Assembly (NCBI RefSeq): GCF_014838715.1
Contig: NZ_CP061947.1
Location: 1,922,001 to 1,986,000 of the forward strand
From: Algoriphagus sp. Y33
Lineage (GTDB): Bacteria > Bacteroidota > Bacteroidia > Cytophagales > Cyclobacteriaceae
DNA length: 64,000 nt
Reading direction: 5' to 3'
The translations under genes and the position numbers were made by a program. The notes under the pieces were generated by a model. The model saw only the letters and a list, made by a program, of their open reading frames with translations. It did not search any database and had not been told where the DNA came from. Every line of letters begins with the position of its first letter. Positions within the stretch are counted from its first letter, which is position 1. Positions 42,239 to 64,000 of the stretch are shown here, one piece after another.

Positions 42239-43590
42239 TTCTTTCCTTTTGCTATTTCCTCCTTCTGAGTTCGGGTATAGAAATCAGCAGGGAACCCATT
42301 AAGCTGTCGCCAGATTTCATACCAAACAGGAACGTCGTTTAGAAGGGCTATTCCATCTGCACCTGATCCCACCCGCAGCATCTCAGGCCATGGAATCTCT
42401 TCCGGATCCTCTGCCACCAAGACCCGGTATTGATTTGTTCTTCCTGCAAACTGATCTATTGCCACAATTACTCCACCAAAAGTGCCGTTAGAAAGTCTCG
42501 GCCATCCTGAGAAAACAATAGCAGGCCAGCCATCAAAGATGAACCGTACTTTTTTGCCTACCTCCATCAAAGGCAAATCCACGGGAGATATGTACATTTC
42601 AACAGCCAGTTTACCATTTGATGGCACAATATTGACTATCTGATCCCCTTCTTTTATCGTCTCGCCAAGCCCGACCTGTATAGCTTCAGCTATAAATCCA
42701 TCCTGAGGAGCCAGTATGTGTCGAAAGCCGGTTCGCGCTTCATAGTTTGAATATTGGTTTTCCAGTTTGGTGGCAGATCCTTCAGCATCGTATTGGCTAG
42801 ATTGTGCTGTGTACATATCCGATTCTGCCTTGGACAGCTTGTCCTTGAAGTCATTGTCTATTGCATCCAGTTCCAGTTTAGCGGAAATCAACGCATTCCT
42901 ACTGCTCAAAAGGCTGTTTTCTACACCGATCACACTTGCCTGCACTTCCTGAAATTTAAGTCTACGGGTTTCTAGATCTGTAAGGGACCGTAAGCCTTCC
43001 TCGTAAAGTTTTTCCGCTCTTCCGAGTTGCTTAAGGCCAATTTCATAGTTGACTTTGGCTTGCTCGAAGCGGATACTGTCTGATTCTACCTGCAGTTCTG
43101 CCATTTCAAGTTTGTTTCTAGCCTGTTCCTTCCTTAATATATTGTTTCGCTTCAAGGCAGCTATCTGGCTTTCCAATGCCTTTACCTTTTCTTTATAAGA
43201 AAGGGCAGAAAGGTTCTTTGCATCCACTTGTCTTTGCGTTCTAGGCAAAAGCAACGAATCGAAGTATTCGTCTTTTACTTCCGTAATACTGACTATGGTA
43301 TCTCCCTTACTTACAAACGCACCTTCATTTACATACCACTTCTCTATTCTACCCGCTATCACCGAATGAATAGTCTGTGCACGATGCTCAGGCTGCAGCA
43401 TGGTGACATAACCCTTAGAGCGGATATATTGAGTCCAAGGAAGAAACAGCATAAGAAACACTATACAACAGGTCACAAACAAGATCCTTACACGCCTCCT
43501 CTTCTGTTCACTTGCCACCGTCAGCTTAAGGCTTTCTGCTTGCTCAAATGGCCTTCGATCTTTGATTTTATTTTCAGAGATGTTTAACAT
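42235..43590 (-). CDS. HlyD-family membrane-fusion protein
   Basis: A 451-residue adaptor. One N-terminal helix (ILFVTCCIVFLMLFLPWTQ), a biotinyl-lipoyl half (GRIEKWYVNEGAFVSKGDTIVSI), a coiled coil of about 150 residues and the second lipoyl half (ILAPQDGFIAEAIQVGLGETIKEGDQIVNI) followed by a beta-barrel. It links the inner-membrane ABC protein to the TolC duct; the genes overlap or sit 4 bp apart. Confidence 0.92.
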   Translation of the reverse strand: MLNISENKIKDRRPFEQAESLKLTVASEQKRRRVRILFVTCCIVFLMLFLPWTQYIRSKGYVTMLQPEHRAQTIHSVIAGRIEKWYVNEGAFVSKGDTIVSITEVKDEYFDSLLLPRTQRQVDAKNLSALSYKEKVKALESQIAALKRNNILRKEQARNKLEMAELQVESDSIRFEQAKVNYEIGLKQLGRAEKLYEEGLRSLTDLETRRLKFQEVQASVIGVENSLLSSRNALISAKLELDAIDNDFKDKLSKAESDMYTAQSSQYDAEGSATKLENQYSNYEARTGFRHILAPQDGFIAEAIQVGLGETIKEGDQIVNIVPSNGKLAVEMYISPVDLPLMEVGKKVRFIFDGWPAIVFSGWPRLSNGTFGGVIVAIDQFAGRTNQYRVLVAEDPEEIPWPEMLRVGSGADGIALLNDVPVWYEIWRQLNGFPADFYTRTQKEEIAKGKK

Positions 43591-43594
43591 AGCG

Positions 43595-45304
43595 TTATGA
43601 GTTGAGGGTTAAAAAGTCTTGGTATCCCGCCTGATTTCCTTGGTAGATGATTTGACCTTCCTCCATTACGATTACTTGATTGGCCTGCCTGATCACTTCC
43701 TCGTCTTGTGTGACCATCAATAGAGTCCATTTGCCGCCAAACAGGTGAGCCATTACTCTGGCTTTAATGTCGCTGTCCACATGCTGCAAGGCATTTTCCA
43801 GAATCATTGCCTGTGGCTCTCCTACCATTGAGCGCGCCAAAATTATAGCCTGTGCCAATTTTCTTGATAAACCTCTGCCTTCAGGAAGTAACATGGTTTG
43901 TAGATCCTCCGGTAATTGATATATAAAATCCTTCAATCCCACCAATTCTATAAGAAACTCCAGCTGCTTCGGGTCAACTTTACGCCCTACCAAAATATTC
44001 TCTTCAATAGTCCCATGGAAAATCTGTTGCAGTTCCATGCAATCCCCTACTACACTTCTGTATTTATCCAAATGAATCATCTCAAGAGAAAGGTCATTGA
44101 TCTTGATGCTTCCCAGATAACTTTCATAAAGCCCTGAAAAGAGTGCTAACATCGCACTTTTTCCACTACCGCTTTTGCCGGTAATCACTGCTTTTGAACC
44201 TGATTCAACCGTAAGTGTCACACCGTTCAAAATGGGCTTTCTTACGTCTCTAGGCTGAAAGACTACATTCTCCATTGTAAGTTTGATCCCTTTTGATTGC
44301 GATGTGATATCCTTTTCGGATTCATTGTGATCTTCAAGTTCCATGTCCATGATTTGACCAAGTTTCTCTGAAGCCACTAGCGTATCATACACAGTCTCCA
44401 GCGAGATAATCAATTTCTCCACAGCATTCACTACCATCAAAATAATCACCTCCGCTGCCACAAACTGACCAATACTGATTTGCTCATTGATCAACAGCAA
44501 GCTGCCCGCTACCAAAAGGCTGGTCACGATCAACACCTTAAAACCGATAAGTATTTTGTATTGAAAAACCAACACAGAAAAGTGATGTGTTCTGAACTCT
44601 ACATATCTTTTCAATAGGTTGTCAGCACGTAAAATCGGCAATTTCGAATTGCCGCCCACTAGCTTAAACGTGTTGAGTGTCCTTCCGATCTCTTCCAGCC
44701 AATATGCAGTTTCGTACTTGTGCGTGGATTCTTTCATAGCCGTGGACATGCCTTTGGGACTAGTGAAATAGAAGATAGTCAATAGGAGGATGATAAGTAT
44801 AACTCCGAATAAGATGAAGGTAGCATGATAAAAGGACAATAGGATCAATCCGAACACCACCTGAATCAATGCGGTAGAATATTCAACTAGAATCTTGGAA
44901 ACTCCCTTTTGAAGATTAACGGTATCAAAAAACCTATTTACAACCTCAGGCGCATACTTACCATGAAAGAGTTCTGACTTGATCTTGGGAAGTCTATAGG
45001 CTAGGGAAAGACCGGATTTGGCAAATATCCTTTGTTGTAGTTTCTCGGTAATCTGTAGCTGGGAAATCTGCAGAAAGCCCCCGAAAGCAATACCGGCTGC
45101 CACTATTATAACCAAGATGATCCAAGAAGTAGTAATTCTTCCCCCAAGGACATAATTCAGAATTGCCTGAATCCCCAACGGCAGAGAAAGTGCTACCAGA
45201 CCGTTCAAAATAGCATAAAAGTAGATTGAATACACCTGATCCTTTTCCTCCTTCAGCAGATTGAAAAATCGCTTCATCGGACTGATTTTCTTTGCATTAT
45301 TCAT
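43595..45304 (-). CDS. ABC half-transporter with degenerate catalytic motifs
   Basis: A 569-residue fused membrane/ATP-binding protein with six predicted helices (about 25-300) and a nucleotide domain. Walker A is intact (GKSGSGKS, 376-383). The signature is LSRKL (479-483) instead of LSGGQ. Walker B reads AMILEN (499-504), with Asp to Glu and catalytic Glu to Asn. The H-loop is VTQ (531-533) with Gln for His, and the Q-loop Gln is also not recognisable. It should bind but scarcely hydrolyse ATP. No second half is encoded nearby. Cargo unknown; no peptidase domain. Confidence 0.9.
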   Translation of the reverse strand: MNNAKKISPMKRFFNLLKEEKDQVYSIYFYAILNGLVALSLPLGIQAILNYVLGGRITTSWIILVIIVAAGIAFGGFLQISQLQITEKLQQRIFAKSGLSLAYRLPKIKSELFHGKYAPEVVNRFFDTVNLQKGVSKILVEYSTALIQVVFGLILLSFYHATFILFGVILIILLLTIFYFTSPKGMSTAMKESTHKYETAYWLEEIGRTLNTFKLVGGNSKLPILRADNLLKRYVEFRTHHFSVLVFQYKILIGFKVLIVTSLLVAGSLLLINEQISIGQFVAAEVIILMVVNAVEKLIISLETVYDTLVASEKLGQIMDMELEDHNESEKDITSQSKGIKLTMENVVFQPRDVRKPILNGVTLTVESGSKAVITGKSGSGKSAMLALFSGLYESYLGSIKINDLSLEMIHLDKYRSVVGDCMELQQIFHGTIEENILVGRKVDPKQLEFLIELVGLKDFIYQLPEDLQTMLLPEGRGLSRKLAQAIILARSMVGEPQAMILENALQHVDSDIKARVMAHLFGGKWTLLMVTQDEEVIRQANQVIVMEEGQIIYQGNQAGYQDFLTLNS

Positions 45305-45974
45305 TTGAAATTGCCTTTACTATTAAATCTTCAAAAAAGACCAACCTGTTTTCTGAGTCTAATGATTGCTCTGTCATATTAGGCAGATGCTTCGAATTAA
45401 ATGCATGAAGCAAACTGGACTCCATGACTGTGTATGCCAAGGTTTTTGGGTAGGGATAAGATGGGTTTATTTCAGCAATCAATTCGGAAATTCGCTCACC
45501 GAAGCTATAGACTTGGGCAAAAATACCGTTTTCATGCTCTGTATCAACTGTTTTAGTCAAATACCCTTTCAGAGATTCATTGACCACTATGCTCCGCAAA
45601 TCCTGAGGATCTATATGTGCATTTTTTATAAAAACCGGCCCATTGACCAAAAGTTTCATGGCTATGGACAAACGGGACTTACTGCTTTCCAGATTAGCTG
45701 TAGCATACACATAATTTACTTCCATCCATGCCCAATACCAAGCAGTGAGATATAGAAGCAACATATGCTTGTTCTCAAAGTAGCGATAAACTGCCGCTTC
45801 AGTCACTCCTATATGCACCGCTAGCTTCTTAAATGTAAAGTGCTCCATACCCAGATCCCGTATAAGCATGGCTCCTTCCTGCACTATGGAACTACCCAAT
45901 TCTGAACTAAATGGTTCCTTTAGGTAGAGATTGTCATGCACCTCCATCTTCAAATTATTGAGTAAATTCTCCAT
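45297..45974 (-). CDS. TetR-family regulator
   Basis: A 225-residue protein with the TetR helix-turn-helix at about residues 33-75 (IRDLGMEHFTFKKLAVHIGVTEAAVYRYFENKHMLL) and a variable ligand/dimer domain. It overlaps the ABC gene by 8 bp and heads the operon, so it is likely an autoregulator. A 15-bp palindrome upstream is the probable operator. Confidence 0.92.
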   Translation of the reverse strand: MENLLNNLKMEVHDNLYLKEPFSSELGSSIVQEGAMLIRDLGMEHFTFKKLAVHIGVTEAAVYRYFENKHMLLLYLTAWYWAWMEVNYVYATANLESSKSRLSIAMKLLVNGPVFIKNAHIDPQDLRSIVVNESLKGYLTKTVDTEHENGIFAQVYSFGERISELIAEINPSYPYPKTLAYTVMESSLLHAFNSKHLPNMTEQSLDSENRLVFFEDLIVKAISNE

Positions 45975-51791: not shown

Positions 51792-52568
51792 TCATTCCCA
51801 TTTTTTGATCTCTTCCAGCAGTTCATCTTTGGACATAGCTATAGATCTGTGAATTTCAGTCATTTTCCTACTGTCTTGATTGGGACTATGAAAAGTGCTG
51901 TTCACTCCCCGCTCATGGGTCAAGTGATAAAGAATTCCTTCAACATGTTGGTGCTTGTATTCTAAAATATTCCAACGGTTCACGCGATCGCCATCTTCCC
52001 GTCCCCATCCATAAAATTTTTCGTTTTCCATACCTGAAGCTATGTACGTTTGCCTATGAGCTAAAAATGCTCCGCCTACAGGATCAGGAGTATACAAGGC
52101 CTTCATTTTACCCTGGTGAATTTTAAGAACTTCTATGTCACGCGTTTGAATATAGAGATCCCTTAATGCTTCAGAAGTATCCAAAAACTTACCCTTATAC
52201 GGAGTAACAAAATCAGCTTCTTTTTTCCTCAACACATCAACAGACTGGTTTAGCTGGTTTACAGGAATAATTATGTCAGTATCCCAAACAATTATATAAT
52301 CATTGTCAACCAATTTGACCATTTGGTTTATATACCTAGTCCTGTGAAAAACAGTATCCATATCTTCTATAAATACATAGTTTACCTCCTGAGGCAATAA
52401 TTTACTTAGCAAACCAGTATTTCTTCCCGAAGCCTCCAACACACTTACCTGTGTATCAAAATTAGACAAAATATACTCAATGGTCACCAACGTATTCTCC
52501 AAGCGATTGACCGTATCAATCCGCAAGGGAATCAAAAAAGTAAAATCATTTAAATTTATCTTTCCCAT
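51792..52568 (-). CDS. Galactosyltransferase-like glycosyltransferase of the peptide locus
   Basis: A 258-residue GT-A enzyme: FTFLIPLRIDTVNRLENTL start, WDTDIIIP with the DTD metal motif and GGAFLAHRQTY followed by GWGREDGD, a form of the GWGxEDxD acceptor/catalytic motif of beta-1,4-galactosyltransferase-like (GT7-type) enzymes. It lies 4 bp after the LanC-like gene, so it belongs to the operon. It may glycosylate a precursor peptide or an envelope component. The target is inferred only from context. Confidence 0.83.
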   Translation of the reverse strand: MGKINLNDFTFLIPLRIDTVNRLENTLVTIEYILSNFDTQVSVLEASGRNTGLLSKLLPQEVNYVFIEDMDTVFHRTRYINQMVKLVDNDYIIVWDTDIIIPVNQLNQSVDVLRKKEADFVTPYKGKFLDTSEALRDLYIQTRDIEVLKIHQGKMKALYTPDPVGGAFLAHRQTYIASGMENEKFYGWGREDGDRVNRWNILEYKHQHVEGILYHLTHERGVNSTFHSPNQDSRKMTEIHRSIAMSKDELLEEIKKWE

Positions 52569-52572
52569 AGTA

Positions 52573-53664
52573 TCAAACTTTTACTACATCCGATTTTTTA
52601 CCCATTTCCATATCTGCCACAGTCATACTTTCCAATAAAGTCCAAGCAACCCCTGACAAACCTGCCGCTAAACCAATGCTTTTTTTAAATGAATTGTAAA
52701 AATCATTATCACCCCAACATGCTGCATTAATGATCTTATTGAGAAACTGCTCATCTGATAGTAAAAGCCGTATATTCCCAGAATTATCTTCAAGTTTATG
52801 CAGTATTTGCCATAGACCACTAGTGCCATCCATGAAGGAGATATTAAGGTTTTTACACTCGATGTTGAGGACCGTTTCCATGTCAATTGTACTTTGTAAA
52901 AACAATGCATGTTTTCTTAAATCAGAATGATCAATCTCCTTCAGCACCGTTTCGATTCCCAGCAACAGATACAATCTATTGCTATGGAGACAAGGAAAAA
53001 GAGAAAGCAAGTTTGGAAGCAGGTATTCAAGAATCCGATTCACCTTATATGCGTTCACTTCTAAGCTTTTTGCCTTTGCCATCACGATCAATGCAAGAGG
53101 CAGATCCCAAAATATGTTAAACAATTGCGGTTCCCTATCCTGTATTTTTTCCTCCTCTATCAATTGTCCGAGTTGGTTAAGCAGGCCAGCACCAAGTCTC
53201 CTAAAAACATAGATATTTGACTGATGGCCTGATTTCAAGGAACTTTCCAAGCGGTCAAGGCAATAAAAGAGGTACCCGATGATCCCATTCCTTAAATTCG
53301 CCGGCAGCTTGTTTTTTTGATCTTCCAAAAACTTAAAAATCCTATCGTCCAGCTCACCCAGAGTATCGTCAAGATCCGCTTCGACAAAATCTGAATTAAC
53401 CAAATAACTAATACCATAAGCAATACCGGCCAGACCACTTTCAAAATCCAAAGAAAGTTTGGCTTCGCTTAGCTTCTCTAAAATCTCTACTACCAGATTT
53501 TCCGCTGCCTCCAAAAATTCCTGGGTTTCGGTCTTCTTTGCCAAGTGATATAAGTAAATACTCAATCCCAGCTTTCCGTGCAGCAAGCCCAACCCATTTT
53601 CTTCCTTGGCATTTTCCAATAGAAGTTCGTTGATTTTATGAAGTTGTTTCAATGCTTGTTTCAT
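52573..53664 (-). CDS. LanC-like cyclase-fold protein without obvious zinc ligands
   Basis: A 363-residue protein with the repeated G-rich turns of the LanC alpha/alpha toroid: GLGLLHGKLGL (24-34), FESGLAGIAYG (75-85), SFMDGTSGLW (276-285) and GLAAGLSGVAW (331-341). In catalytic LanC proteins a CHG motif occupies the last site; here it is LAAG. The C(Y)G site may correspond to ACWGDN (315-320). No lanthipeptide dehydratase is present in the window. A leader-binding or scaffold role is possible. The ATG at 53664 is preferred over a 12-residue upstream extension. Confidence 0.8.
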   Translation of the reverse strand: MKQALKQLHKINELLLENAKEENGLGLLHGKLGLSIYLYHLAKKTETQEFLEAAENLVVEILEKLSEAKLSLDFESGLAGIAYGISYLVNSDFVEADLDDTLGELDDRIFKFLEDQKNKLPANLRNGIIGYLFYCLDRLESSLKSGHQSNIYVFRRLGAGLLNQLGQLIEEEKIQDREPQLFNIFWDLPLALIVMAKAKSLEVNAYKVNRILEYLLPNLLSLFPCLHSNRLYLLLGIETVLKEIDHSDLRKHALFLQSTIDMETVLNIECKNLNISFMDGTSGLWQILHKLEDNSGNIRLLLSDEQFLNKIINAACWGDNDFYNSFKKSIGLAAGLSGVAWTLLESMTVADMEMGKKSDVVKV

Positions 53665-53733
53665 ATTACTAAATTTTATAGTGTATCCACATGAATGCAT
53701 GTGACAGAATTAATGTCGTTTATAACCAGTGAA

Positions 53734-53775
53734 AATCCCCCTACCCCCTTTGAAAAAGGGGGAGTTGCCAAATAG
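53734..53775. repeat. C-rich/G-rich hairpin repeat between the HlyD and LanC-like genes
   Basis: aatccccctaccccc followed by tttgaaaaaggggga forms a tight 8-bp stem. This kind of ccccctttgaaaaaggggg word is scattered between genes in Bacteroidota. It may dampen read-through to the LanC-like and glycosyltransferase genes. Confidence 0.6.
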
Positions 53776-53835
53776 GAACTTCTATAGTTTCTGCAAAACC
53801 CATACATGTAGTTACACGGTTATGCATATGATTTA

Positions 53836-55140
53836 TTAATACTCTGTCACCGATTTCAACTTAAAAAACAGCCTTTCAGCCACACTCAGGTCTTCTGTAA
53901 TGATCTCCGCCGTACCCAGCAGTTCTTGCTTCAGCTGTATCTCCTTTCCGTAGGAGGTTTCCATACCAGCTGGAAGAGAACAATACACCAGATAATTCCC
54001 TTCCTCATCAGGAGAAACTGAAATACTCCCTACTTCTCCTCGAAGGGTTCCAAATTGTTGAAAAGGGAAATTATCCAACTTGATCAACACCCGCTGTCCT
54101 ATGGTGATTTTGCCTGTATTTTGCGAAGAGACAATCATTTTACCCAGAAGTTCTGACCGCTGCTCAGGCAGTATGGAAAAGACTTGTTCACCTGCCTGGA
54201 CAAATTGATGCTCTCCCCATACTCCCTGGAAGCTAACCTCTCCATCGGTAGAGGAAACCAGCACATAATTATTCTCCCATTCTTTTACTACCCGTTTCAA
54301 ACCATGATAGGACTGGATAAGATTAATTAAGGCTCTGGACTCATCCTGTTCTTTGGACACTTGTGTACTTTTAAGCGTTTGCCCCGCATTGACTAAAGCT
54401 TCCTGAAGCTGGGAAATGCTTATGGTCATTCCATTTACCTGTTCCTGCATCTGAAGGTATTCCATCTCCCGGCTCTCAAAGTCTTTGGATGCAATTACCC
54501 CGTCTTCATAGAGTATCTTGTTTCGTTTAAAATCGGTCTCTACCAGACTAACCTTTCTCTCCAAAATTTCCTTTTGAGCCATTTGGCTTGTGAGCCGTTC
54601 ATGGATTTCCTGAATAGACTGCCGGTTCCCTTCCAGCTGGACCAGGGATGGCTGAAGCCTTTCGAGCAGTCTGAATTCCATATAGCTTCGCTCAAACTCC
54701 ACAAATGCCAGTTCTATTTCTCCCAAGACCGCATTTGAAAGAGAATCCAACGGGAAGAAAAACCCATTGTTCTTCCCAAAGGGAATGTCTTTCAGCATCT
54801 TTTTCAATAACAATACGCTTTGCACATCAGAGGTGCTTTTTATACTGGCCAATGACTGACCGGCCTGTACTTTTTCGCCATTGTCCACCCATAGCTTATC
54901 AATCTGCCCTGAACTTCTCGCTATAATCTTTTCAGTTGGTTCCACTGTGGTAACCATTACCCTAGACATAATAAAATCGGGGTATTTGATGAAAAAGGAC
55001 AAAAAAATCAATCCACAGGTAATCAAAAACACCAGCGTGATTCCCCACCGGATCAGCCAGGCAGGAGGAGTTGTAATAATCTCCTGAACCTCTTCGGATC
55101 TGAGCTGTAGATTGTCAATGCTTGGGGGGCTTTCTGGCAT
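53836..55140 (-). CDS. HlyD-family adaptor of the peptide exporter
   Basis: A 434-residue protein. One N-terminal helix (GITLVFLITCGLIFLSFFIKYP), lipoyl half (GQIDKLWVDNGEKVQAGQSLASI), a long coiled coil and C-terminal barrel region. Immediately downstream (2 bp) of the peptidase ABC gene, as in peptide exporters. It bridges the periplasm to an outer-membrane duct, which is not encoded in this locus. Confidence 0.92.
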   Translation of the reverse strand: MPESPPSIDNLQLRSEEVQEIITTPPAWLIRWGITLVFLITCGLIFLSFFIKYPDFIMSRVMVTTVEPTEKIIARSSGQIDKLWVDNGEKVQAGQSLASIKSTSDVQSVLLLKKMLKDIPFGKNNGFFFPLDSLSNAVLGEIELAFVEFERSYMEFRLLERLQPSLVQLEGNRQSIQEIHERLTSQMAQKEILERKVSLVETDFKRNKILYEDGVIASKDFESREMEYLQMQEQVNGMTISISQLQEALVNAGQTLKSTQVSKEQDESRALINLIQSYHGLKRVVKEWENNYVLVSSTDGEVSFQGVWGEHQFVQAGEQVFSILPEQRSELLGKMIVSSQNTGKITIGQRVLIKLDNFPFQQFGTLRGEVGSISVSPDEEGNYLVYCSLPAGMETSYGKEIQLKQELLGTAEIITEDLSVAERLFFKLKSVTEY

Positions 55141-55142
55141 AA

Positions 55143-57344
55143 CTAGTTTTCTCTAATTTTTTCCAGTTCCAATTGATTTTTCACCAGATTATAATACACA
55201 CCAGCTTGTAAAACCAATTCTTCATGGGTTCCTGTCTCCTTAATTCTCCCTTCATCCATCACGATGATCTGGTCTGCATTTCTTACCGTACTGAGCCGAT
55301 GGGCGATAATGAAAACCGTCTTCCCTTTCAAAAATCTATTTAAATTTTCCATTACAATACGTTCATTTTTGGCATCTAAGGCAGAGGTTGCTTCGTCAAA
55401 AAAAAGAATCTCCGGATTTTTATACACTGCACGGGCAATAAACAGACGTTGCTTTTGCCCGGTACTGATCCCTACTCCCTCATTCCCAATTTTAGTATTG
55501 AATCTAAGGGGTAGGGATTGGATAAAGTCATAGATATTGGCAGTCTGGGAAGCCACGACCAGTCGATCGAGGTCGATCACTTCTTCTCCCACCGCTATAT
55601 TTGAGGCAATGGTATCATTGAATATGTAGCCTTCCTGCATTACGACTCCACAATGGTCTCTCCAGCTCCGGGGTGAGATGGAATCAAAACCATGTCTCCC
55701 ATAGCGGATTTCCCCCTTAGTCGGTTCGTAAAATTTAAGGAGGAGTTTCATCAGAGTGGTTTTCCCGCATCCGCTGGCCCCCACTACTGCTGTGATCTTT
55801 TGCGAAGGAACACACAGGCTGAGTTCTTGGAGGACATTTTCATCAGCTCCCAAATACCGAAAACTGAGCTTTTCAACACTTAAATCCTCCCCGGGTATGA
55901 TCTCATGGACTAGTTGCCTGTTGCGGCTTTCCTCATCTTCTTTGTCGTGGATCTCGTTGAGCCGTTCCAAGCTGATCTTTGCATCCTGATAAGTACGCAC
56001 AAAGCTCACGATACCCATAATCGGACCGTTCAACTGGCCGATGATATACTGGAGAGATAACATCATACCCAAAGTAAGCTGTCCCTCTATCACCAAAAGT
56101 GCAGAGGCAAAGGTCACAAAAATATTTTTCAGCTCATTGATTACAGAAGATCCGACACCTTGGGTCTGCTCCAAAGCGAGTGTCTTGATAGAAACATTGA
56201 AGAGACTGGCCTGCACAAACTCCCATTTCCAGCGCTTTTGGGTTTCGGCATTGTGTAGCTTGATCTCCTGCATGCCATTGATCAACTCGATTACGGTACT
56301 TTGCTCCTGGCTAAGCTGGGCAAAGCGCATGTAATCCAGCTCTTTTCTCCGCTTTAGGAAATAGAGAATCCATAGGATATAGACTACGCTTCCTCCCATA
56401 AATATCAGGAAGATCATAGGGCTGTAATACATCAGCACCCCACCGAACACAAAAAGGTTAAAAAAAGAAAAGAAGGTGTTCAATGCCGTGCCTGTCAGCA
56501 GGTTTTCTATCCGGCTATGATCTCCGATTCGCTGCATAATATCCCCGGTCATCCGCGTATCAAAGAAGGAAATTGGCAGGTTCATCAACTTGATAAAAAA
56601 ATCGGATACCAGAGAGATATTGACTCGGGTACTGAGGTGTAGCAGAATCCAACTCCTAAAAACTTCAACACTTGTCCGGCCAAAAAACAACATCACCTGT
56701 GCTATCAATATTAGGTAGATAAATCCTACGTCCTGGTTTTGAATCCCAATATCAACTATACTCTGGGTCAAAAATGGAAAAATCAACTGGAGAAGGCTAC
56801 CCACTAACAAACCAATACCCAGTTGAACGATCAAGCTCTTATACTTGAACAGGTACTTGAAAAGAAAACCCAATGAGCGCTTATCCGCACTCTCCCATTT
56901 CATTTTTTTGAATCTGGGGGTGGGTTCAAGAAGCAAGGTAATTCCTTCCTTACTCTCTTCCGTGGCATTGTTACCTATCCACCGGGAGATAAACTCTTCT
57001 TTCGTAAGGTGAATTAACCCATACGCCGGATCTGAAAGATAAACCTTCCCCTTATTGATTTTATATACTACCACAAAGTGGTTCTTGTCCCAGTGTACAA
57101 TTAAGGGCAACTGAGCCTGCTCCAACCTTTTAAAATCCAGTTTAGCACCTATGGTCTTAAAACCAATTGCTTCTGCTGCATCACTAAGCTTAAGCAAGTT
57201 GCTTCCGGATCGGGTAGTCTCGGATAGGGTTCGGATTTCCTGGAGAGAGATCAGCTTGCCGTAGTGCTTTGCAATGATTCTCAGACAGGTCGGCCCGCAG
57301 TCCTTTGAGTCGGGTTGTTTATAAAATGGAAATGAGACTTTCAA
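55143..57344 (-). CDS. Peptidase-containing ABC exporter (C39 domain)
   Basis: A 733-residue transporter that cleaves double-glycine leaders and exports the core. C39 residues: Gln10, Cys16 in KDCGPTCL, His89 and Asp105. A six-helix membrane domain follows, then an ATPase with GASGCGKTT (Walker A), STGQKQR (signature variant), FFDEATSALD (Walker B) and IIAHR (H-loop). Unlike the 43.6-kb ABC protein, every catalytic motif is intact. The start seems to be TTG, 2 bp after the lipoprotein stop; no nearby ATG in frame. Confidence 0.94.
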   Translation of the reverse strand: MKVSFPFYKQPDSKDCGPTCLRIIAKHYGKLISLQEIRTLSETTRSGSNLLKLSDAAEAIGFKTIGAKLDFKRLEQAQLPLIVHWDKNHFVVVYKINKGKVYLSDPAYGLIHLTKEEFISRWIGNNATEESKEGITLLLEPTPRFKKMKWESADKRSLGFLFKYLFKYKSLIVQLGIGLLVGSLLQLIFPFLTQSIVDIGIQNQDVGFIYLILIAQVMLFFGRTSVEVFRSWILLHLSTRVNISLVSDFFIKLMNLPISFFDTRMTGDIMQRIGDHSRIENLLTGTALNTFFSFFNLFVFGGVLMYYSPMIFLIFMGGSVVYILWILYFLKRRKELDYMRFAQLSQEQSTVIELINGMQEIKLHNAETQKRWKWEFVQASLFNVSIKTLALEQTQGVGSSVINELKNIFVTFASALLVIEGQLTLGMMLSLQYIIGQLNGPIMGIVSFVRTYQDAKISLERLNEIHDKEDEESRNRQLVHEIIPGEDLSVEKLSFRYLGADENVLQELSLCVPSQKITAVVGASGCGKTTLMKLLLKFYEPTKGEIRYGRHGFDSISPRSWRDHCGVVMQEGYIFNDTIASNIAVGEEVIDLDRLVVASQTANIYDFIQSLPLRFNTKIGNEGVGISTGQKQRLFIARAVYKNPEILFFDEATSALDAKNERIVMENLNRFLKGKTVFIIAHRLSTVRNADQIIVMDEGRIKETGTHEELVLQAGVYYNLVKNQLELEKIREN

Positions 57345-57346
57345 AT

Positions 57347-58444
57347 TTACTTTAATTCAACTATTCCAATTGAAGGATTTAATTCTTCTGAAGAACTATC
57401 AAAAAAAACTCCTTCTTGAATAAAATAAAAAATGTCATTAGCTAAGTCTAAAGGCTTTAACTGAAGGCGATTTCCCTGTTCATTCAAGATCCCCCTTTTA
57501 AAATTGTAACCAATTCCGTTATCTATATTATATATAAATAACATAGGAATTTTATTTCTAGAATATTGACACAGCAGGTATGAAGTGGAGTACATTACAT
57601 TATAAAGATCAATTGTCTTAACATCATCACTAGACATAGTAGGGTCTTCAAAATTAAATTTCATTATAGGCACTACCGAATCTGCATCAATCTTATATAA
57701 CGTATCTCTAATAAATTTTTCACTAATTAACACTGGGGTATACAGAAACAATCCGTTATTATTTTTAGAAATATAATTCTTAGTTGTAAAGCCTGAATAC
57801 GTATTTTTCTTATGAATTTCAGTCCTAAAAAGGACACTATCTATAAGATCAAGAGATGTATTCAAACTATATACAAAAGTCTGACTAGAGTACCCTGTTC
57901 CTACCTGAATTCCACTTTTTTTAGATATTACTAACGGCTCACTCCCTTCAACACTTAAATATTGAATAAAAAATGGGAATTTTTTTTCTTTAATAAACTC
58001 ATGTTCATTTGAATAAACTTGCAATTTTCTCTGGGAGCCCAAATATATCAATCCAGAATTATCAATTGCTACTGAATAAGCTCTAGAATATTCTTCTGGG
58101 CCATCACCTAATTTACCTAAAATATTCAAGAATTTCCCCTCTGAGTCAAAAATCAAGACCTTTCCACTCACATCTCTCACATATAAGTTCCCATTTGAAT
58201 ACTTAACTTCCATAATTGATGTCAAATAGGAACCATCGGTTGTTTCAAGCTGAATATATTTTATTGACTTTGCTAAATCCTCTATCAACAATTCTGAATC
58301 AGTATCAGGAATATCAATCGAATGCAAATCATTCGAAATAGAGTTCGAACACGCTGCACTTAAATAAAGAAAAACAATACAAACAATTAATAGTTTAAAA
58401 CTAGAAGGAAACAAAATTAAATTCTTAAACCTATATTTCAGCAT
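57347..58444 (-). CDS. 6-bladed beta-propeller lipoprotein
   Basis: A 365-residue lipoprotein (FLYLSAACSNS) of the Bacteroidota six-bladed propeller type (DUF4934/BF3164-like). It starts with the SIKYIQLETTDGSYL strand pattern, then repeated blades such as NLYVRDVSGKVLIFDSEGKFLNILG. AT-rich compared with neighbours. It lies between the precursor gene and the exporter; a surface-retention, receptor or immunity role is possible but not shown. Confidence 0.8.
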   Translation of the reverse strand: MLKYRFKNLILFPSSFKLLIVCIVFLYLSAACSNSISNDLHSIDIPDTDSELLIEDLAKSIKYIQLETTDGSYLTSIMEVKYSNGNLYVRDVSGKVLIFDSEGKFLNILGKLGDGPEEYSRAYSVAIDNSGLIYLGSQRKLQVYSNEHEFIKEKKFPFFIQYLSVEGSEPLVISKKSGIQVGTGYSSQTFVYSLNTSLDLIDSVLFRTEIHKKNTYSGFTTKNYISKNNNGLFLYTPVLISEKFIRDTLYKIDADSVVPIMKFNFEDPTMSSDDVKTIDLYNVMYSTSYLLCQYSRNKIPMLFIYNIDNGIGYNFKRGILNEQGNRLQLKPLDLANDIFYFIQEGVFFDSSSEELNPSIGIVELK

Positions 58445-58494
58445 ACCAAAATATTAATATTTTAAAATAAATTCGATATTATTAACCCAGTAGT

Positions 58495-58531
58495 TAAATG
58501 GTAAGCCATCGAACTGATGGCTTACCATTTA
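58495..58531 (-). terminator. Stable hairpin after precursor gene 1
   Basis: A perfect 16-bp stem (taaatggtaagccatc and complement) with a 5-nt loop, between the precursor stop and the lipoprotein start. No T-run follows in the minus direction, so it is more likely an mRNA-stabilising or attenuating stem than a full terminator. Confidence 0.7.
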
Positions 58532-58553
58532 ATTATGAAAATTAATCAAAATT

Positions 58554-58754
58554 TTACGCCTCGACGCAACTAACATCCTGATCAATAGGACATCCAGAAT
58601 CGTCTACGGGGTCTCCATCAGTCATTACAGTAAAAGGTTCACCTCCATTGCAGGTACAATTATAAAAAGTACCTCCAATAATAGTAGCTAATTGAGTACG
58701 ATCAAGTAACTCCTCAGGAAACAGATTCATTTTTTTAAAATTAGAATTTTTCAT
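58554..58754 (-). CDS. Double-glycine-leader precursor peptide 1 (4-Cys core)
   Basis: A 66-residue precursor. A 28-residue leader ends ...LLDRTQLATIIGG, the GG site cleaved by the C39 exporter. The 38-residue core is acidic, starting TFYNCTCNGG and ending DVSCVEA, with four Cys (5, 7, 27, 35), enough for two disulfides. The upstream TTG would put a structured RNA arm inside the coding region, so the ATG at 58754 is chosen. It lies downstream of VKOR fusion 1 with the 51-nt element between. Confidence 0.85.
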   Translation of the reverse strand: MKNSNFKKMNLFPEELLDRTQLATIIGGTFYNCTCNGGEPFTVMTDGDPVDDSGCPIDQDVSCVEA

Positions 58755-58780
58755 GCTAATAAAATTATTATTATAAAATT

Positions 58781-58831
58781 TCCCAGACAAATTAGGGCAC
58801 CTGGGAGTATGCCCATCCGTCGCGACCGAAT
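58781..58831 (-). ncRNA. Candidate structured RNA element, copy 1
   Basis: Read on the minus strand: hairpin attcg-gtcgcga-cggat, then stem gggca (S1), loop tac, tcccag (S2), g, tgccc (S1'), an 8-nt loop, and ctggga (S2'). This is an H-type pseudoknot. All lengths equal those of copy 2; see findings. It ends 26 nt before the precursor ATG. Confidence 0.6.
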
Positions 58832-58869
58832 ATTTTTAGGACAAATACAAGCACACTTGTATTTGTAAC

Positions 58870-60432
58870 TTAGACAAGTATAAATTTCAAATCCATCACT
58901 TTAAATTCACTAGGAAGCTCATAACCATTAATAAACAGGGTCGGCGTATAGGAAATCTGTTCTTTATTGCACCAGTCCTCCATTTCTTTCACCCTTTCTT
59001 CTTGAAGCCTAAGCTCTCCATTCATCGGATAGTTAGCGGCAAATCTTCCATAATCTTTTTTCTCTGATCCGTACCAGTCGTCCAACGCCTGGCGGGTAAG
59101 GTTTGAATCACCATTACTTTCTATAGCAAGTAAATGCCGAACTGTTTTTTCTTTTTGCTCATCTCCACTCGCAGGTGTAAAAATGATCTGAAGGTCTATA
59201 TTTCCTCTATCAACGAGACTTTCCAATACAGGATGAACCCAGGCACATGGGGCACAGTATGGATTGCACACTTTAATAACTTGGTATTTAGGTTTTTCAC
59301 CCTTCAGTAATATCCCAAGCCCCCGAGGCTCACTCTTGATCTTTTTCGATCGCGAAAGAGACAATTCAAACAATTCCTTATTGCTTTTGAGTTTGGCAAG
59401 TTCTCTTTGGGTTTTATAGACTTTATCCCGTAGTCCAAGCATTGGTTTAATCAAAATGCCTCCCAAGATCACCCCTGTTAAAAGTAAAAGAAACGAAGAG
59501 ACAACAAACACATCAACTCCTCCTGACCGAAACGCTCCACCCAGTACTGTCAGAACCTCCATTACCAGCACTCCCTGAATCATCAGGCAGAACCTGCACC
59601 ATTTTTTAATAACTAGAGCCTGATAATAAAAGGAAGAGATCACCACCGGAATGGTCGCTATACTCAAGTAAGCAAGGAATGTCACAGAGGATAAGCCTGA
59701 ACTTGCTAGCAAACCTGTCCCGGCAAAGAAGTAGGCAAAGGCCAGCAGACTTGGGTTAATCCGGCCGTCCAAAATATGAAAGGCCTTTGAATCCAGCACG
59801 GAATTGCAATCCACGCTTTTTCCCCCAGAGCAGAACTTTTGAAGGATAGAGTTTTCCTTATCAAGTGAATACCACAGTAGTATACCCGAAATAGACAATC
59901 CCAATAACTTAAGCACAAAATAAAATAGGGATAATCCCGAAATTCCATTTTCCACTATACCAAACCCTAACCAAAGCAGGAGGCTAGCCGCACATAGCAT
60001 TGCCACGCCTTTGATGATTCGCTGATTCCGGATCTTTTGATTGATTTCCGGTTCTGCTGCATCTTCCCCAGCTTCTACCAATAGACTCACACCCGTCCAA
60101 CTCTTCAGAAATTCCAGTCTGGATACATCCTTTTGTTTCCCTTGTTCATCAAATACGGAAACCATTTTTTCAGAAACAGCCGTGACCACATTAAAGTAGG
60201 TACCATTAGCCTGTGAAACCTGTACAATTCCCGGAAGAGGAAACTCATCCAACCAGTTCGATCCCAGCTTGGCAGCCATAGACTCCACTCCATACTCCTC
60301 TAGCGTATCCGATATAGCAAGCAAGCTGGGATATTGGGGATGGGTGAGAATCTTTTCCTTCAGGAATTGCTGGGTAAAAGGCGCCCTAAGCGACTCCAAT
60401 ACTCTCTTACAAATGACCAAACAGTTATCCAT
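58870..60432 (-). CDS. Membrane VKOR-thioredoxin fusion with C39-like N-terminal domain, copy 1
   Basis: A 520-residue membrane protein. Residues 1-120 resemble a C39 peptidase fold (HPQYPSLLAI, LPGIVQV, F..SWTGVSLLVE) but lack the catalytic Cys/His. Five or so helices follow, with VKOR cysteines Cys201, Cys209 and the CxxC Cys279-Arg-Phe-Cys282, then a thioredoxin/DsbA domain with Cys393-Ala-Pro-Cys396. It should make disulfides in exported peptides and return electrons to quinone. It is directly upstream of precursor 1 and closely related to copy 2. Confidence 0.9.
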   Translation of the reverse strand: MDNCLVICKRVLESLRAPFTQQFLKEKILTHPQYPSLLAISDTLEEYGVESMAAKLGSNWLDEFPLPGIVQVSQANGTYFNVVTAVSEKMVSVFDEQGKQKDVSRLEFLKSWTGVSLLVEAGEDAAEPEINQKIRNQRIIKGVAMLCAASLLLWLGFGIVENGISGLSLFYFVLKLLGLSISGILLWYSLDKENSILQKFCSGGKSVDCNSVLDSKAFHILDGRINPSLLAFAYFFAGTGLLASSGLSSVTFLAYLSIATIPVVISSFYYQALVIKKWCRFCLMIQGVLVMEVLTVLGGAFRSGGVDVFVVSSFLLLLTGVILGGILIKPMLGLRDKVYKTQRELAKLKSNKELFELSLSRSKKIKSEPRGLGILLKGEKPKYQVIKVCNPYCAPCAWVHPVLESLVDRGNIDLQIIFTPASGDEQKEKTVRHLLAIESNGDSNLTRQALDDWYGSEKKDYGRFAANYPMNGELRLQEERVKEMEDWCNKEQISYTPTLFINGYELPSEFKVMDLKFILV

Positions 60433-60520
60433 AGACTGGTAAATAAAAATTCAACTAAAACTCTGTTGTTTAAATAGATTGGATGAATTTGGGAATTACG
60501 TTTTTAAAACACTATACCGT

Positions 60521-60548
60521 ATTTACTAAATTTCAGTAAATTTTTACT
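60521..60548. promoter_or_regulatory. Candidate operator/promoter of the XRE regulator and VKOR copy 1
   Basis: Half-sites TTTACT, AGTAAA and TTTACT (60522, 60535, 60543) form two overlapping inverted repeats, with the outer two in direct phase 21 bp apart. A TAAATTTC -7-like word (60527-60534) lies inside the first pair. The site is in the divergent gap, 23-50 bp before the XRE start. Confidence 0.5.
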
Positions 60549-60570
60549 ATCCCAATTAACCTTTTACCCC

Positions 60571-60798
60571 ATGAAAATTGGACATAAATTGAAAAAAGCC
60601 AGAGAATCCAAAAGACTAAGCAAGCAGGAAGTATCGGATCGCTTAGGAATTTCCCAAAAAATACTATTCAATATGGAAAGTGGCAAAACACAACCTTCTG
60701 TCCTCCAATTGGCCGCTTTGGGGGACATTTATAAGATAGATATACTGAAATTATTATCCGAGAGCGGAATACATTTATCCCCCCCGCAATCTCTCTGA
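60571..60798 (+). CDS. XRE-family helix-turn-helix regulator
   Basis: A 75-residue protein that is a single HTH domain: KIGHKLKKARESKRLSKQEVSDRLGISQKILFNMESGKTQPSV. It is the only plus-strand gene of the peptide locus, divergent from VKOR copy 1, and it probably controls the locus and itself through the inverted repeats in the shared intergenic region. No C-terminal ligand domain. Confidence 0.9.
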   Translation: MKIGHKLKKARESKRLSKQEVSDRLGISQKILFNMESGKTQPSVLQLAALGDIYKIDILKLLSESGIHLSPPQSL

Positions 60799-60840
60799 GG
60801 CCGATAAAGAAATATAAAATTGTTCTTATCATATTTTAGG

Positions 60841-62379
60841 TTATTGTTTTGGAGGTGGTGGGGGTATTGAAGATCCGGATTTCTTGTTGTTTTCCCTTGG
60901 CGGCAAATTAGACACATCGTTTTCCTCAAACATGGATAGTGGTTTCGCTCTCTTATTTATTATTCCCCCGTCTTTGGCAAAAAGAAAATAGTGAGGAAAT
61001 TCCCCTTCCCATCCAAACAACAAAGCGAACTCTTTCTGCAATATGGGGCCTGGCTCACCCACAACCACAAAGCAGTTTTCCTTTTTTAAATTGTATTTCT
61101 CTACAATATTGAGCCATTTTGTTTTATCATTTTCGAAAAATAGCCAAATAGGTCGTACTTTTTTGGAGTTGTCCAAATGTCCTGTTTTTGCATATACAGA
61201 CATCTCTTCCAGACAGGGCTTACACCATGATCCTGAAAAATCAAGTAATAGATAGGGCTGGTCTGTTGTCTTAAACAGCTCTTCAAAAACAAGTTCTTTG
61301 TCATTCACATCAAACAATCGGGCACTTCTAATTGCATTGTTTATATATCCCGATTTTTCAATCCCCTTATTGGGGTTTTGATTTGCCTTAATTGCATATT
61401 CCTTAAAAGCCGGGTACGTCAGTCTGTCAATAATGCCTGATTTTTCTTCTACGCTTAACATTCCGTCATTAAAAAGACTTAGGATTGCATACTGCTTAAC
61501 GGTATCATTACAGCCATTGAACTTTTCAATAATAGATTGTGCATCTAGATCCATTTCCTTGAAAAAGTGATAGATGGCTTCATATTTCCCCCAGGTCATG
61601 GGGTCATCATAAGCATTTTCTTGCACACAAGAGTATTCAAGGATGTTTAGTACACTTTTTTCAATAGCATTTTTTAAAGATTCGTCTTTTGTATTAATAT
61701 AAAGATGCTTAATCCTGTAAATCAATTCTCGTGAAAACCGGTCAGCACCACTTTTTTTTACAGTTCCAAAAGTAGAACTGTCATGTTTCAGGTTGGGGTG
61801 ATCTTTGTAAATCAGCACGGTACAACTATCAGTCATGTTCATTAGGCTTTCTGTAGACAGGAATTCAGCCATTCGGTCAGCCGTTTCTATATTTTTGAGA
61901 GAACCGTAAATATTGTCCAAATATTTATCGAACAAGGACCGGTGACCTCCATTTCTATGTGTAAAGAATACATTTCCATGATTAATGTGTAGGGTGTCCT
62001 TGTAGACTGTCTTTGTGTGTAGCAAGGTTTCAAAGTCCATGTTTAAGCTGTCTCCCGGCTCAATATAAAAAAAACTAAAATCTAAGGACAAATAAACCGG
62101 CTTATCTATGGCAACTTTTATTTCTGTTTTTAGATTGGTTGTAGTATCAATAGTGTTTAGTGGGGGAGGAACATACCTAGGATTAAAAAACAGTGGATTA
62201 TGTTGGCCAAGAGACAAATATTTCCTGTCAGCATTTTTTTTGAGGTTTATTACAATTGTTGTGTTATAGATTTCCGGCTTTTCATCAGAGAGCACTTCGG
62301 CATTCTGCGAATAACATGAAACACACCAAATAAACAGGTATGAAAGAATGGAAAGCGTCTTATAAAAATCAGGTAGCAT
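60841..62379 (-). CDS. TlpA-like thioredoxin protein
   Basis: A 512-residue secreted protein: N-terminal hydrophobic segment (LSILSYLFIWCVSC), a long domain without recognised family, then a thioredoxin fold at about 350-490 with WCKPC in DFSGSWCKPCLEEM. The tail is proline-rich (SSIPPPPPKQ). It sits between precursor 2 and VKOR copy 1 and could reduce or proofread disulfides in the secreted peptides. The ATG at 62379 gives a signal-like start; 13 upstream residues are judged non-coding. Confidence 0.82.
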   Translation of the reverse strand: MLPDFYKTLSILSYLFIWCVSCYSQNAEVLSDEKPEIYNTTIVINLKKNADRKYLSLGQHNPLFFNPRYVPPPLNTIDTTTNLKTEIKVAIDKPVYLSLDFSFFYIEPGDSLNMDFETLLHTKTVYKDTLHINHGNVFFTHRNGGHRSLFDKYLDNIYGSLKNIETADRMAEFLSTESLMNMTDSCTVLIYKDHPNLKHDSSTFGTVKKSGADRFSRELIYRIKHLYINTKDESLKNAIEKSVLNILEYSCVQENAYDDPMTWGKYEAIYHFFKEMDLDAQSIIEKFNGCNDTVKQYAILSLFNDGMLSVEEKSGIIDRLTYPAFKEYAIKANQNPNKGIEKSGYINNAIRSARLFDVNDKELVFEELFKTTDQPYLLLDFSGSWCKPCLEEMSVYAKTGHLDNSKKVRPIWLFFENDKTKWLNIVEKYNLKKENCFVVVGEPGPILQKEFALLFGWEGEFPHYFLFAKDGGIINKRAKPLSMFEENDVSNLPPRENNKKSGSSIPPPPPKQ

Positions 62380-62487
62380 ATTTATTAGAGTAAAGTGCTT
62401 GTCTAAAGAACTGAACATCTAGCAAGCCGATGTTAGTGCAATAGAATCTATATAAGCGAAGATCCTAACTTGTACTAAAGCCAACAA

Positions 62488-62510
62488 AAGAGACTGCTCC
62501 GGGTTCTCTT
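62488..62510 (-). terminator. Weak hairpin after precursor gene 2
   Basis: aagaga/tctctt stem with an 11-nt loop followed by tttt in the minus direction, 30-55 bp past the precursor stop; could set the precursor-to-TlpA transcript ratio. Confidence 0.4.
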
Positions 62511-62541
62511 GGTCAATTTCTTTTGCTGGCAGTAATTACAA

Positions 62542-62820
62542 CTAGCACCAATAGGTAGAACCGTTGTTATATGAGCCGCCGTCACAGCAGTAGTTATGGC
62601 AACTTGTACCACCGACACTAGAGCCACATGTGCCATAGCCATAGCTACCACTATTATTTGCGTGACAATATTGGGTGCAATTATTCGGACAAGGGTTGCC
62701 GTTGTTGCCTCCTGGTGTACCTGAACCGGAACCACTTCCACCCATCACTCTTTTTAACTGCTCTCTGCTTAGCACCTCTGCTCCTGCAAAGTTGATTTTA
62801 CCTAATCTTAACTTTTTCAT
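62542..62820 (-). CDS. Double-glycine-leader precursor peptide 2 (8-Cys core)
   Basis: A 92-residue precursor. The 28-residue leader ends ...LSREQLKRVMGG, typical of Bacteroidota GG-leader natural-product precursors. The 64-residue core is Gly/Asn/Ser-rich and very low in charge, with eight Cys in the pattern NPCPNNCTQYC, GTC, TSC, NYCC, YWC; enough for four disulfides. It starts downstream of VKOR copy 2 with the conserved 51-nt element between. Both precursors have a leader of the same length. Confidence 0.88.
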   Translation of the reverse strand: MKKLRLGKINFAGAEVLSREQLKRVMGGSGSGSGTPGGNNGNPCPNNCTQYCHANNSGSYGYGTCGSSVGGTSCHNYCCDGGSYNNGSTYWC

Positions 62821-62859
62821 AATTTGGTTTTTTTAAATGTTTAAAAACTGTATTTAACC

Positions 62860-62910
62860 TCCCAGACCTGGCGGAGCACCTAGGAATATGCCCATTCATC
62901 GCGACTGAAT
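62860..62910 (-). ncRNA. Candidate structured RNA element, copy 2
   Basis: Hairpin attca-gtcgcga-tgaat; pseudoknot arms gggca/tgctc and tcctag/ctggga with 3-, 1- and 8-nt loops. Same geometry as copy 1, with paired substitutions. It ends 39 nt before the precursor ATG. Confidence 0.6.
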
Positions 62911-62948
62911 ATTATTTACTTCCCAACTGGAAAAATTGAAAAGTTGAT

Positions 62949-64000
62949 TTAATCAAGTAAGTACTTTAGATAGTCTACGTTATAATCTTGAGGCAACTCA
63001 TACCCGTTAATAAACAAGGTTGGTGTATAAGAAATGTTTTCCTTAACACACCATTCCTCCATAGCCATCACTTTTTCCTCCTGTTGTATCAGTTCACCGT
63101 TCATTGGATATTTGGCAGCAAATGCACTATATTCTTTCTTTTCTGCTCCATACCAGTCATCCAAAGCTTGGTGCGTAAGTTTTGAATCACCTTTACCTTT
63201 TATTGCCAATAAATGCCGAACAGTCTTTTCCTTTTTCTCATCCCCGTTACCCGGTGTAAAAAGAATCTGAAGATCTATATTCCCCTTTGTAAAAAGGTTT
63301 TCCAATACTGGATGTACTTGGGCACATGGGGCGCAATAAGGATTGCATACTTTTATGACTTGGTGTTTCGCATTTTCTCCTTTCATCAATATTCCAAGCC
63401 CATGAGGATCATTCTTGATCTTTCTGGACCGCAAAAGAGACAATTCAAATAACTCCTTGTTGCTTTTAAGTTTAGCCATTTCTCTATTGGTGCTATAGAT
63501 CTTATCCTGTAGACCAAGTAGGGGTTTGATCAGAATCCCTACTAAGATTATTCCAGAGAATAAAAACAGAAAGAAACCGACTACAGACACATCAATTCCG
63601 CCTGACCAAAATAGTCCTCCAGATACAGCCAGAACTTCTAATATTAACACTCCCTGAATCAGCAAACAGAAACTACACCATTTCTTGATTACAAGTGACT
63701 GATAATAAAAAGAGTAGATCACCAACGGGAGGGTCGCTACACTTATCCAGGCAAGAAATGTAATGGATGAGAATGCTGATCCTACAAGCAAAACCGTCCC
63801 TGTAAAAAAGTATGCGAATGCCAGCAGACTTGGGTTGATTCTTCCTTCCAGCCATTGGAAAGCTTTTGAATTCAGAACCTTATTACAATCTACCTGCTTA
63901 CCTCCCAAGCAGAACTTTTGAAGGGTAGGATTATCATTGTCCTGCTGGTACCATAGTAGGACAGCCGAAATGGACAATCCCAATAGTTTAAGAACAAAAT
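62949..64000 (-). CDS. VKOR-thioredoxin fusion, copy 2 (N-terminal part outside window)
   Basis: The frame runs open off the right edge; FVLKLLGLSIS at the edge matches copy 1, so it is a truncated view and not a broken gene. Visible are the VKOR cysteines (FCLGGKQVDC), the CxxC KKWCSFC, and a thioredoxin domain VCNPYCAPCAQVHP, with the same C-terminal FINGYELP block. Strongly similar to copy 1 throughout. It is followed by the RNA element and precursor 2. Confidence 0.9.
   Translation of the reverse strand, partial: FVLKLLGLSISAVLLWYQQDNDNPTLQKFCLGGKQVDCNKVLNSKAFQWLEGRINPSLLAFAYFFTGTVLLVGSAFSSITFLAWISVATLPLVIYSFYYQSLVIKKWCSFCLLIQGVLILEVLAVSGGLFWSGGIDVSVVGFFLFLFSGIILVGILIKPLLGLQDKIYSTNREMAKLKSNKELFELSLLRSRKIKNDPHGLGILMKGENAKHQVIKVCNPYCAPCAQVHPVLENLFTKGNIDLQILFTPGNGDEKKEKTVRHLLAIKGKGDSKLTHQALDDWYGAEKKEYSAFAAKYPMNGELIQQEEKVMAMEEWCVKENISYTPTLFINGYELPQDYNVDYLKYLLD

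Follow-up and report, generated by a model that had tools for sequence, protein, structure and literature searches.

Locus content and gene order

The peptide locus described here lies at the end of a 64,000-nucleotide stretch of Algoriphagus sp. Y33 DNA (the window), which belongs to a host genome of 6.38 Mb in one contig. On the minus strand, the gene order is VKOR2, precursor 2, a TlpA-like gene, VKOR1, precursor 1, a DUF5128 propeller, a C39 peptidase-containing ATP-binding cassette (ABC) exporter, an HlyD-type adaptor, a LanC-like gene, and a glycosyltransferase (Table 1). Genes for HTH_3 regulators (HTH, helix-turn-helix) diverge from both VKOR genes, HTH1 being located on the plus strand between the TlpA-like gene and VKOR1, and HTH2 on the plus strand beyond the window end, where it precedes VKOR2. 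The locus consists of two copies of a unit of HTH, VKOR, precursor, and partner gene, served by one common export and tailoring unit.

Ten locus proteins were scanned against Pfam and NCBIfam. The open reading frames (ORFs) and family matches confirmed the gene set and gene order of a first-pass annotation made from the DNA sequence, including two cysteine-rich precursors with double-glycine (GG) leaders. The exporter, which had been described as having intact motifs, was found to retain the catalytic Cys, His, and Asp of its C39 domain and to carry the ABC membrane and ATPase domains of a peptidase-containing ABC transporter. Also supported was the claim that peptide secretion, dedicated disulfide chemistry, and a glycosyltransferase are linked in one locus. 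That annotation had overlooked the inactive C39 domain on the oxidases, their reversed charge pattern, the pairing of cores with partners, the exchange of enzymes behind HlyD in related loci, and the DUF5128 propeller.

Table 1. Genes of the peptide locus, with positions in the window and supporting evidence
Feature	Position	Strand	Evidence
GT7-like glycosyltransferase, 258 aa	51792..52568	-	Glyco_transf_7C 23.3 bits, cut-off 23.0 (bare pass; Pfam)
LanC-like protein lacking zinc ligands, a putative substrate-binding pseudoenzyme, 363 aa	52573..53664	-	PF05147 (LANC_like) 43.8 bits, cut-off 23.2
HlyD-type adaptor, 434 aa	53836..55140	-	PF13437 (HlyD_3) 63.2 bits
C39 peptidase-containing ABC exporter, 733 aa	55143..57344	-	PF03412 (Peptidase_C39, 122 bits), PF00664 (ABC_membrane), PF00005 (ABC_tran)
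lipoprotein-like six-bladed propeller (DUF5128), precursor 1 partner	57347..58444	-	PF17170 85.8 bits
Precursor 1, GG leader and 38-aa core, 4 Cys after GG	58554..58754	-	TIGR04149 20.0 bits (weak; cut-off 25)
VKOR1, dead C39-like domain, six-transmembrane VKOR and thioredoxin-like domain, 520 aa	58870..60432	-	PF03412 47.5, PF07884 46.9 bits
HTH_3 regulator 1, divergent from VKOR1	60571..60798	+	PF01381 40.2 bits
TlpA-like protein, 525 aa, partner slot of precursor 2	60841..62418	-	PF13905 (Thioredoxin_8) 21.2 bits, below cut-off 27; WCKPC motif
Precursor 2, GG leader and 64-aa core, 8 Cys after GG	62542..62820	-	8/8 Cys invariant in 7 sequences
VKOR2, 74% identical to VKOR1	62949..64000, continues to about 64511	-	sequence comparison

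Linkage of VKOR fusions to precursors

A search of 295 genomes of the same family with VKOR2 gave matches in 94, many of which were to the C39 part of an exporter only. Together with 77 scanned loci and the LanC-anchored loci, the search yielded 125 VKOR fusions (104 distinct), 102 of the distinct fusions having enough sequence behind the gene to be scored. A precursor was defined as a GG-leader ORF with at least three cysteines located no more than 400 bp behind the gene, and was present behind 60 of the 102. Under the same rule, control genes in the same loci scored 12/501 (unlabelled ORFs of at least 300 aa), 0/79 (ABC exporters), 3/67 (HlyD), and 0/32 (LanC), and cassette neighbours scored higher, with 5/27 and 2/12 for propellers, 4/21 for TlpA-like genes, and 6/12 for DUF6734. 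The linkage between VKOR fusions and precursors exceeds chance. The first-pass annotation had named a consistent lack of precursors in homologous loci as a refutation of its claim, and no such lack was observed.

Domain structure and topology of the VKOR fusions

In VKOR1, Pfam placed a Peptidase_C39 match at residues 4-121 and a VKOR match at residues 171-291, and matches to thioredoxin families were below cut-off only. The earlier description of these proteins as VKOR-thioredoxin fusions had missed the N-terminal C39-like domain, a profile of which matched the C39 part of exporter structures (e.g. 4ry2, E 1.4e-4). The catalytic Cys column of the C39 alignment contained Cys in 65/65 exporters and in 0/104 fusions; the His column contained His in 65/65 exporters and mostly Gly, Asn, or Asp in the fusions. 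The C39-like domain of the VKOR fusions has lost its catalytic residues. The cysteines of a VKOR disulfide oxidase are retained, with the loop Cys 201/209 present in 104/104 fusions and the CxxC (279/282) in 103/104, as is the thioredoxin-like CxxC (Cys 393/396; 103/104).

Six hydrophobic segments, reaching 1.2, were found in 100-104 of the 104 fusions. Because this number is even, the C39-like domain, the Cys 201/209 loop, the CxxC, and the thioredoxin-like domain should share one side of the membrane. Mean numbers of Lys plus Arg in the loops were 4.1, 4.2, 1.8, and 4.4 on this redox side and 0.11, 0.17, and 0.45 on the opposite side, and the redox side had more in 104/104 fusions, also when loop lengths were matched (30 vs 28 columns). 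When the charge count was anchored on the cysteines, the redox side was the more positive in all 103 fusions measured, compared with 2/25 other VKORs of the phylum; the canonical periplasm-facing pattern, with more positive charge opposite the redox centre, was seen in 23 of those 25 and in none of the 103 fusions. On account of these charges and the positive-inside rule, the redox side was read as cytoplasmic. No DsbB match, and no VKOR other than those of the locus, was found in the genome.

Precursor cores and partner genes

The precursors of the locus are members of a hypervariable family, in which 160 distinct cores stand behind one kind of leader and the number of cysteines is even in 145 of them. 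Among 112 precursor-partner pairs, the leaders had a mean normalised similarity of 0.48 and the cores one of 0.12. Cross-genome pairs of cores with a similarity of at least 0.35 had similar partners in 61/66 cases, against a background of 3.7% of 6129; with the cut-off at 0.30, the count was 71/89, and shuffling within 27 genomes at this cut-off gave a mean of 20.7 and a maximum of 41, with 0/1000 shuffles reaching 71. The core and the neighbouring partner gene are inherited together, which is the pairing of product and neighbour expected of a toxin-immunity cassette. The pair of precursor 1 and propeller recurs in A. antarcticus (L077; core similarity 0.68, partner 0.43) and also in A. pacificus (L081), and one of the seven sequences that share the cysteines of precursor 2 is from a named uncultured Pedobacter. 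The partners fall into DUF5128, DUF4221, CarboxypepD_reg, and Redoxin/TlpA classes, besides several classes that match no family. The TlpA-like protein occupies the partner slot of precursor 2 and is more likely its cognate partner than a general disulfide catalyst.

Among the Cyclobacteriaceae loci, 23 of 24 partial exporter copies were N-terminal pieces that start at residue 1-4 and end at residue 30-277. Of 22 distinct N-terminal stubs, 21 lay directly behind an ORF of at least 250 aa, which in 14 cases itself stands behind a precursor. The stubs probably mark displaced precursor-partner cassettes, as in toxin-immunity arrays.

In the most similar discordant pair, a DDE transposase occupies the partner place. 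At L049 (2462-3664), a DDE transposase lies directly behind a precursor; in a relative, L054, the partner position is taken by a different gene. In a metagenome-assembled genome of Chitinophagaceae (L137, 7685-8357), three tandem GG precursors share the core spacing C-x6-C-x5/7-CC-x4-C-x4/5-C, a C-C-CC-C-C framework that, judged by spacing, resembles the cystine-knot peptides of animals and plants.

LanC-like protein, glycosyltransferase, and the slot behind HlyD

The LanC-like gene of the window is the only LANC_like match in the genome. Alignment with a control from locus L201, which has both the WCxG and the CHG zinc-ligand motif, showed that the window protein has neither, and both were absent from 34 of the 35 distinct LanC-like proteins examined. 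Because the zinc ligands of a catalytic LanC are missing, lanthionine formation is unlikely, and by its motifs the protein is not a cyclase. No match to a dehydratase (LanB, LanM/LanKC/LanL) was found among the ten locus proteins scanned.

The glycosyltransferase has a GT-A fold, as determined by computation. A scan against NCBIfam, a library that presumably contains a SunS-type model, gave no SunS-type match to this protein, the comparison being made by scan and not directly with SunS, and returned only TIGR04440 (16.8 bits, cut-off 70). A GT7-like gene was located within 1.5 kb of 21/31 LanC-like proteins scoring at least 80 bits, and a VKOR in the same stretch in 22/31. The glycosyltransferase and LanC-like genes keep together in relatives, in support of the first-pass annotation; against it, 9/31 stretches had no VKOR, so the pair is also found away from the oxidase. 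The slot behind HlyD holds exchangeable enzymes (LanC plus GT7, DUF6734, other glycosyltransferases, or a sulfotransferase), and ten unlabelled genes in this slot included, by Pfam, seven glycosyltransferases, one sulfotransferase, and one UDP-galactopyranose mutase. The products are likely to be glycosylated disulfide peptides.

Several related arrangements were recorded. A Sulfotransfer_4 domain is fused to a zinc-less LanC-like domain at L040 (13953-15704), and the same gene is present in L084, from Cyclobacterium sp. L200 (1-7294) contains consecutive ABC, HlyD, GT7-like, LanC-like, and two Sulfotransfer_3 genes. DUF3405-like, LanC-like, and GT7-like genes adjoin in L193-L195 and L197, where no exporter was found in the stretch examined; L193 also has a FkbM methyltransferase and a group-1 glycosyltransferase. 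L201 (9513-14644) encodes, in addition to the LanC with both motifs, a 10-Cys GG precursor and what may be a dehydratase split over two ORFs (745 and 302 aa), and is perhaps a true lanthipeptide locus. In the Algoriphagus genome, LanB-like dehydratases of 872 and 876 aa are encoded at G000:C1 1394896-1397514 (L243 6897-9515) and 3570321-3572951 (L244 7322-9952), respectively; both genes adjoin histidine-kinase and LytTR-like genes, and no LanC-like gene was detected for either.

Proposed mechanism and alternatives

The locus was best explained, with a probability of roughly 0.55, as a system that matures and exports hypervariable, disulfide-rich peptides, with cytoplasmic oxidation, glycosylation, and cognate partners. 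Briefly, the VKOR fusion would use its dead C39 domain to hold the precursor leader at the inner membrane, and its inward-facing VKOR centre would hand electrons to quinone while the thioredoxin domain makes the core disulfides in the cytoplasm. In the next step, the LanC-like pseudoenzyme would present the peptide to the glycosyltransferase, which would add a sugar, and the C39 exporter and HlyD would cleave after GG and export the folded peptide. The adjacent protein, the propeller in the case of peptide 1 and the TlpA-like protein in that of peptide 2, would be a cognate envelope protein, most likely providing self-protection against an antagonistic peptide. The dead C39-like domain, the six segments, and the charge pattern are most simply read as an inverted VKOR that oxidises the precursor in the cytoplasm while the leader is still attached. 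The fuller proposal, at slightly less than even odds, is a leader-guided, cytoplasm-facing disulfide synthase in which a degenerate C39 domain is fused to an inverted VKOR-thioredoxin, and the precursor is folded oxidatively with its leader on before being decorated and exported; it would serve a Bacteroidota-wide set of conotoxin-like, interchangeable cysteine-rich cores, each moving with its cognate envelope partner.

Several observations weigh against this explanation. The topology of the fusions was derived from hydropathy and the positive-inside rule, 42/102 fusions had no precursor within 400 bp under the rule used, and 18/52 readable slots behind HlyD held no enzyme. Searches gave no glycosyltransferase identity for DUF6734. 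The partners are not known immunity families, and by a rough pattern 50/109 were lipoprotein-like (control 65/364). The rank correlation of cores and partners over all pairs was weak (rho 0.08), because most pairs differ in core as well as in partner; similar partners had similar cores (at least 0.25) in only 86/227 cases, and 18/89 similar-core pairs had unlike partners. The two LanB-like dehydratases, about 0.6 and 1.6 Mb away, also count here, as does the finding that literature searches returned no experiment on any family member. Producers of bacteroidetocins seem to be without an immunity gene (PMC6671954).

Co-inheritance of core and partner fits receptors or chaperones equally well. 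The peptides could be signals or surface ligands with a cognate receptor or carrier in the partner place; the propeller (DUF5128, DUF4221), TlpA-like, and CarboxypepD_reg partners, none of them a known immunity family, suit this view, which we consider rather doubtful, since strong core turnover and displaced pairs before truncated exporter genes would be more typical of antagonism and, HTHs aside, no signal-transduction gene was seen among the locus ORFs read. The same machinery with the usual VKOR orientation, which would place the C39-like domain, redox centre, and thioredoxin domain in the periplasm and have oxidation follow export, is unlikely. Well-known bacterial VKORs do act outside the cytoplasm, and mature cysteine-rich peptides finish outside the cell, but the charges of the fusions are opposite to those of 23/25 other VKORs, and an external C39-like domain, placed on the redox side by the six segments, would have no leader to bind after cleavage by the exporter. 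A strict lanthipeptide or glycocin locus is highly improbable: LanC-like protein, glycosyltransferase, C39 exporter, and thiol enzymes do occur together, and help from the remote dehydratases is conceivable, but the zinc ligands, a dehydratase match among the ten locus proteins scanned, and a SunS-type match in the NCBIfam scan are missing and the glycosyltransferase is GT7-like.

If the preferred explanation is true, tethering of the oxidase to the leader would allow disulfide-rich peptides to be made although the cytoplasm is reducing, an unusual way of forming disulfides. The locus would also yield candidate partner genes for the peptides of Bacteroidota, and one survey of Bacteroidales clusters saw no homologue of the immunity proteins described so far (PMC10352776). 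Zinc-less LanC-like proteins may, on this view, act as partners of glycosyl- and sulfotransferases.

Comparison with known systems

The VKOR of Aeropyrum pernix, an archaeal protein not known to have a C39 domain or peptide cassette, reportedly has a topology that promotes disulfides in two compartments. Orphan arrays of polymorphic toxins and of type VI secretion system effector-immunity genes contain displaced cognate pairs beside an active module and truncated machinery; the present locus differs in its conserved leader, small cysteine-rich core, and C39 exporter.

Glycocin clusters (sublancin, glycocin F, thermoglycocin) contain the same kinds of ingredients, namely a leader peptide, a C39 exporter, thiol-disulfide oxidoreductases, and a glycosyltransferase acting on the peptide (PMC12457901). 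The Algoriphagus locus differs in having a GT7-like glycosyltransferase with a LanC-like partner in place of the SunS/GccA kind, a membrane VKOR fusion with a dead C39 domain in place of two thioredoxin-like proteins, and hypervariable cores with partners, in Bacteroidota. The earlier term "glycocin-like" was apt for the GG-leader Cys peptide, the C39 exporter, and the presence of thiol oxidoreductases (of another kind), and not for family membership. In its workings the locus resembles a glycocin system or one for disulfide-rich bacteriocins; judged by its glycosyltransferase, it is not a glycocin locus.

Bacteroidetocins share with the locus the phylum, GG leader, Cys-containing peptide, C39 exporter, and thiol oxidoreductase, and need a protein with five transmembrane segments for full activity; they differ in a four-gene region for which no glycosyltransferase, LanC, or partner gene is described there, and in producers that inhibit themselves (PMC6671954). 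LanC-like proteins without the zinc triad occur near carbohydrate-active enzymes in Bacteroidales clusters for ribosomally synthesized and post-translationally modified peptides, which differ in the presence of radical SAM enzymes, and the authors consider these proteins probably outside lanthipeptide synthesis (PMC10352776). What is new here is a VKOR fusion that carries a dead C39 domain and shows the reversed charge pattern, together with the cassettes of core and cognate partner.

Neighbouring genes

The ORFs flanking the locus appear unrelated when read by eye, and no outer-membrane factor gene was noticed in the peptide locus by ORF reading. A second export set, consisting of ABC (without C39), HlyD-like, TolC-like, and TetR-like genes, was read from the ORFs at window positions 40850-45974, 6-11 kb from the locus.

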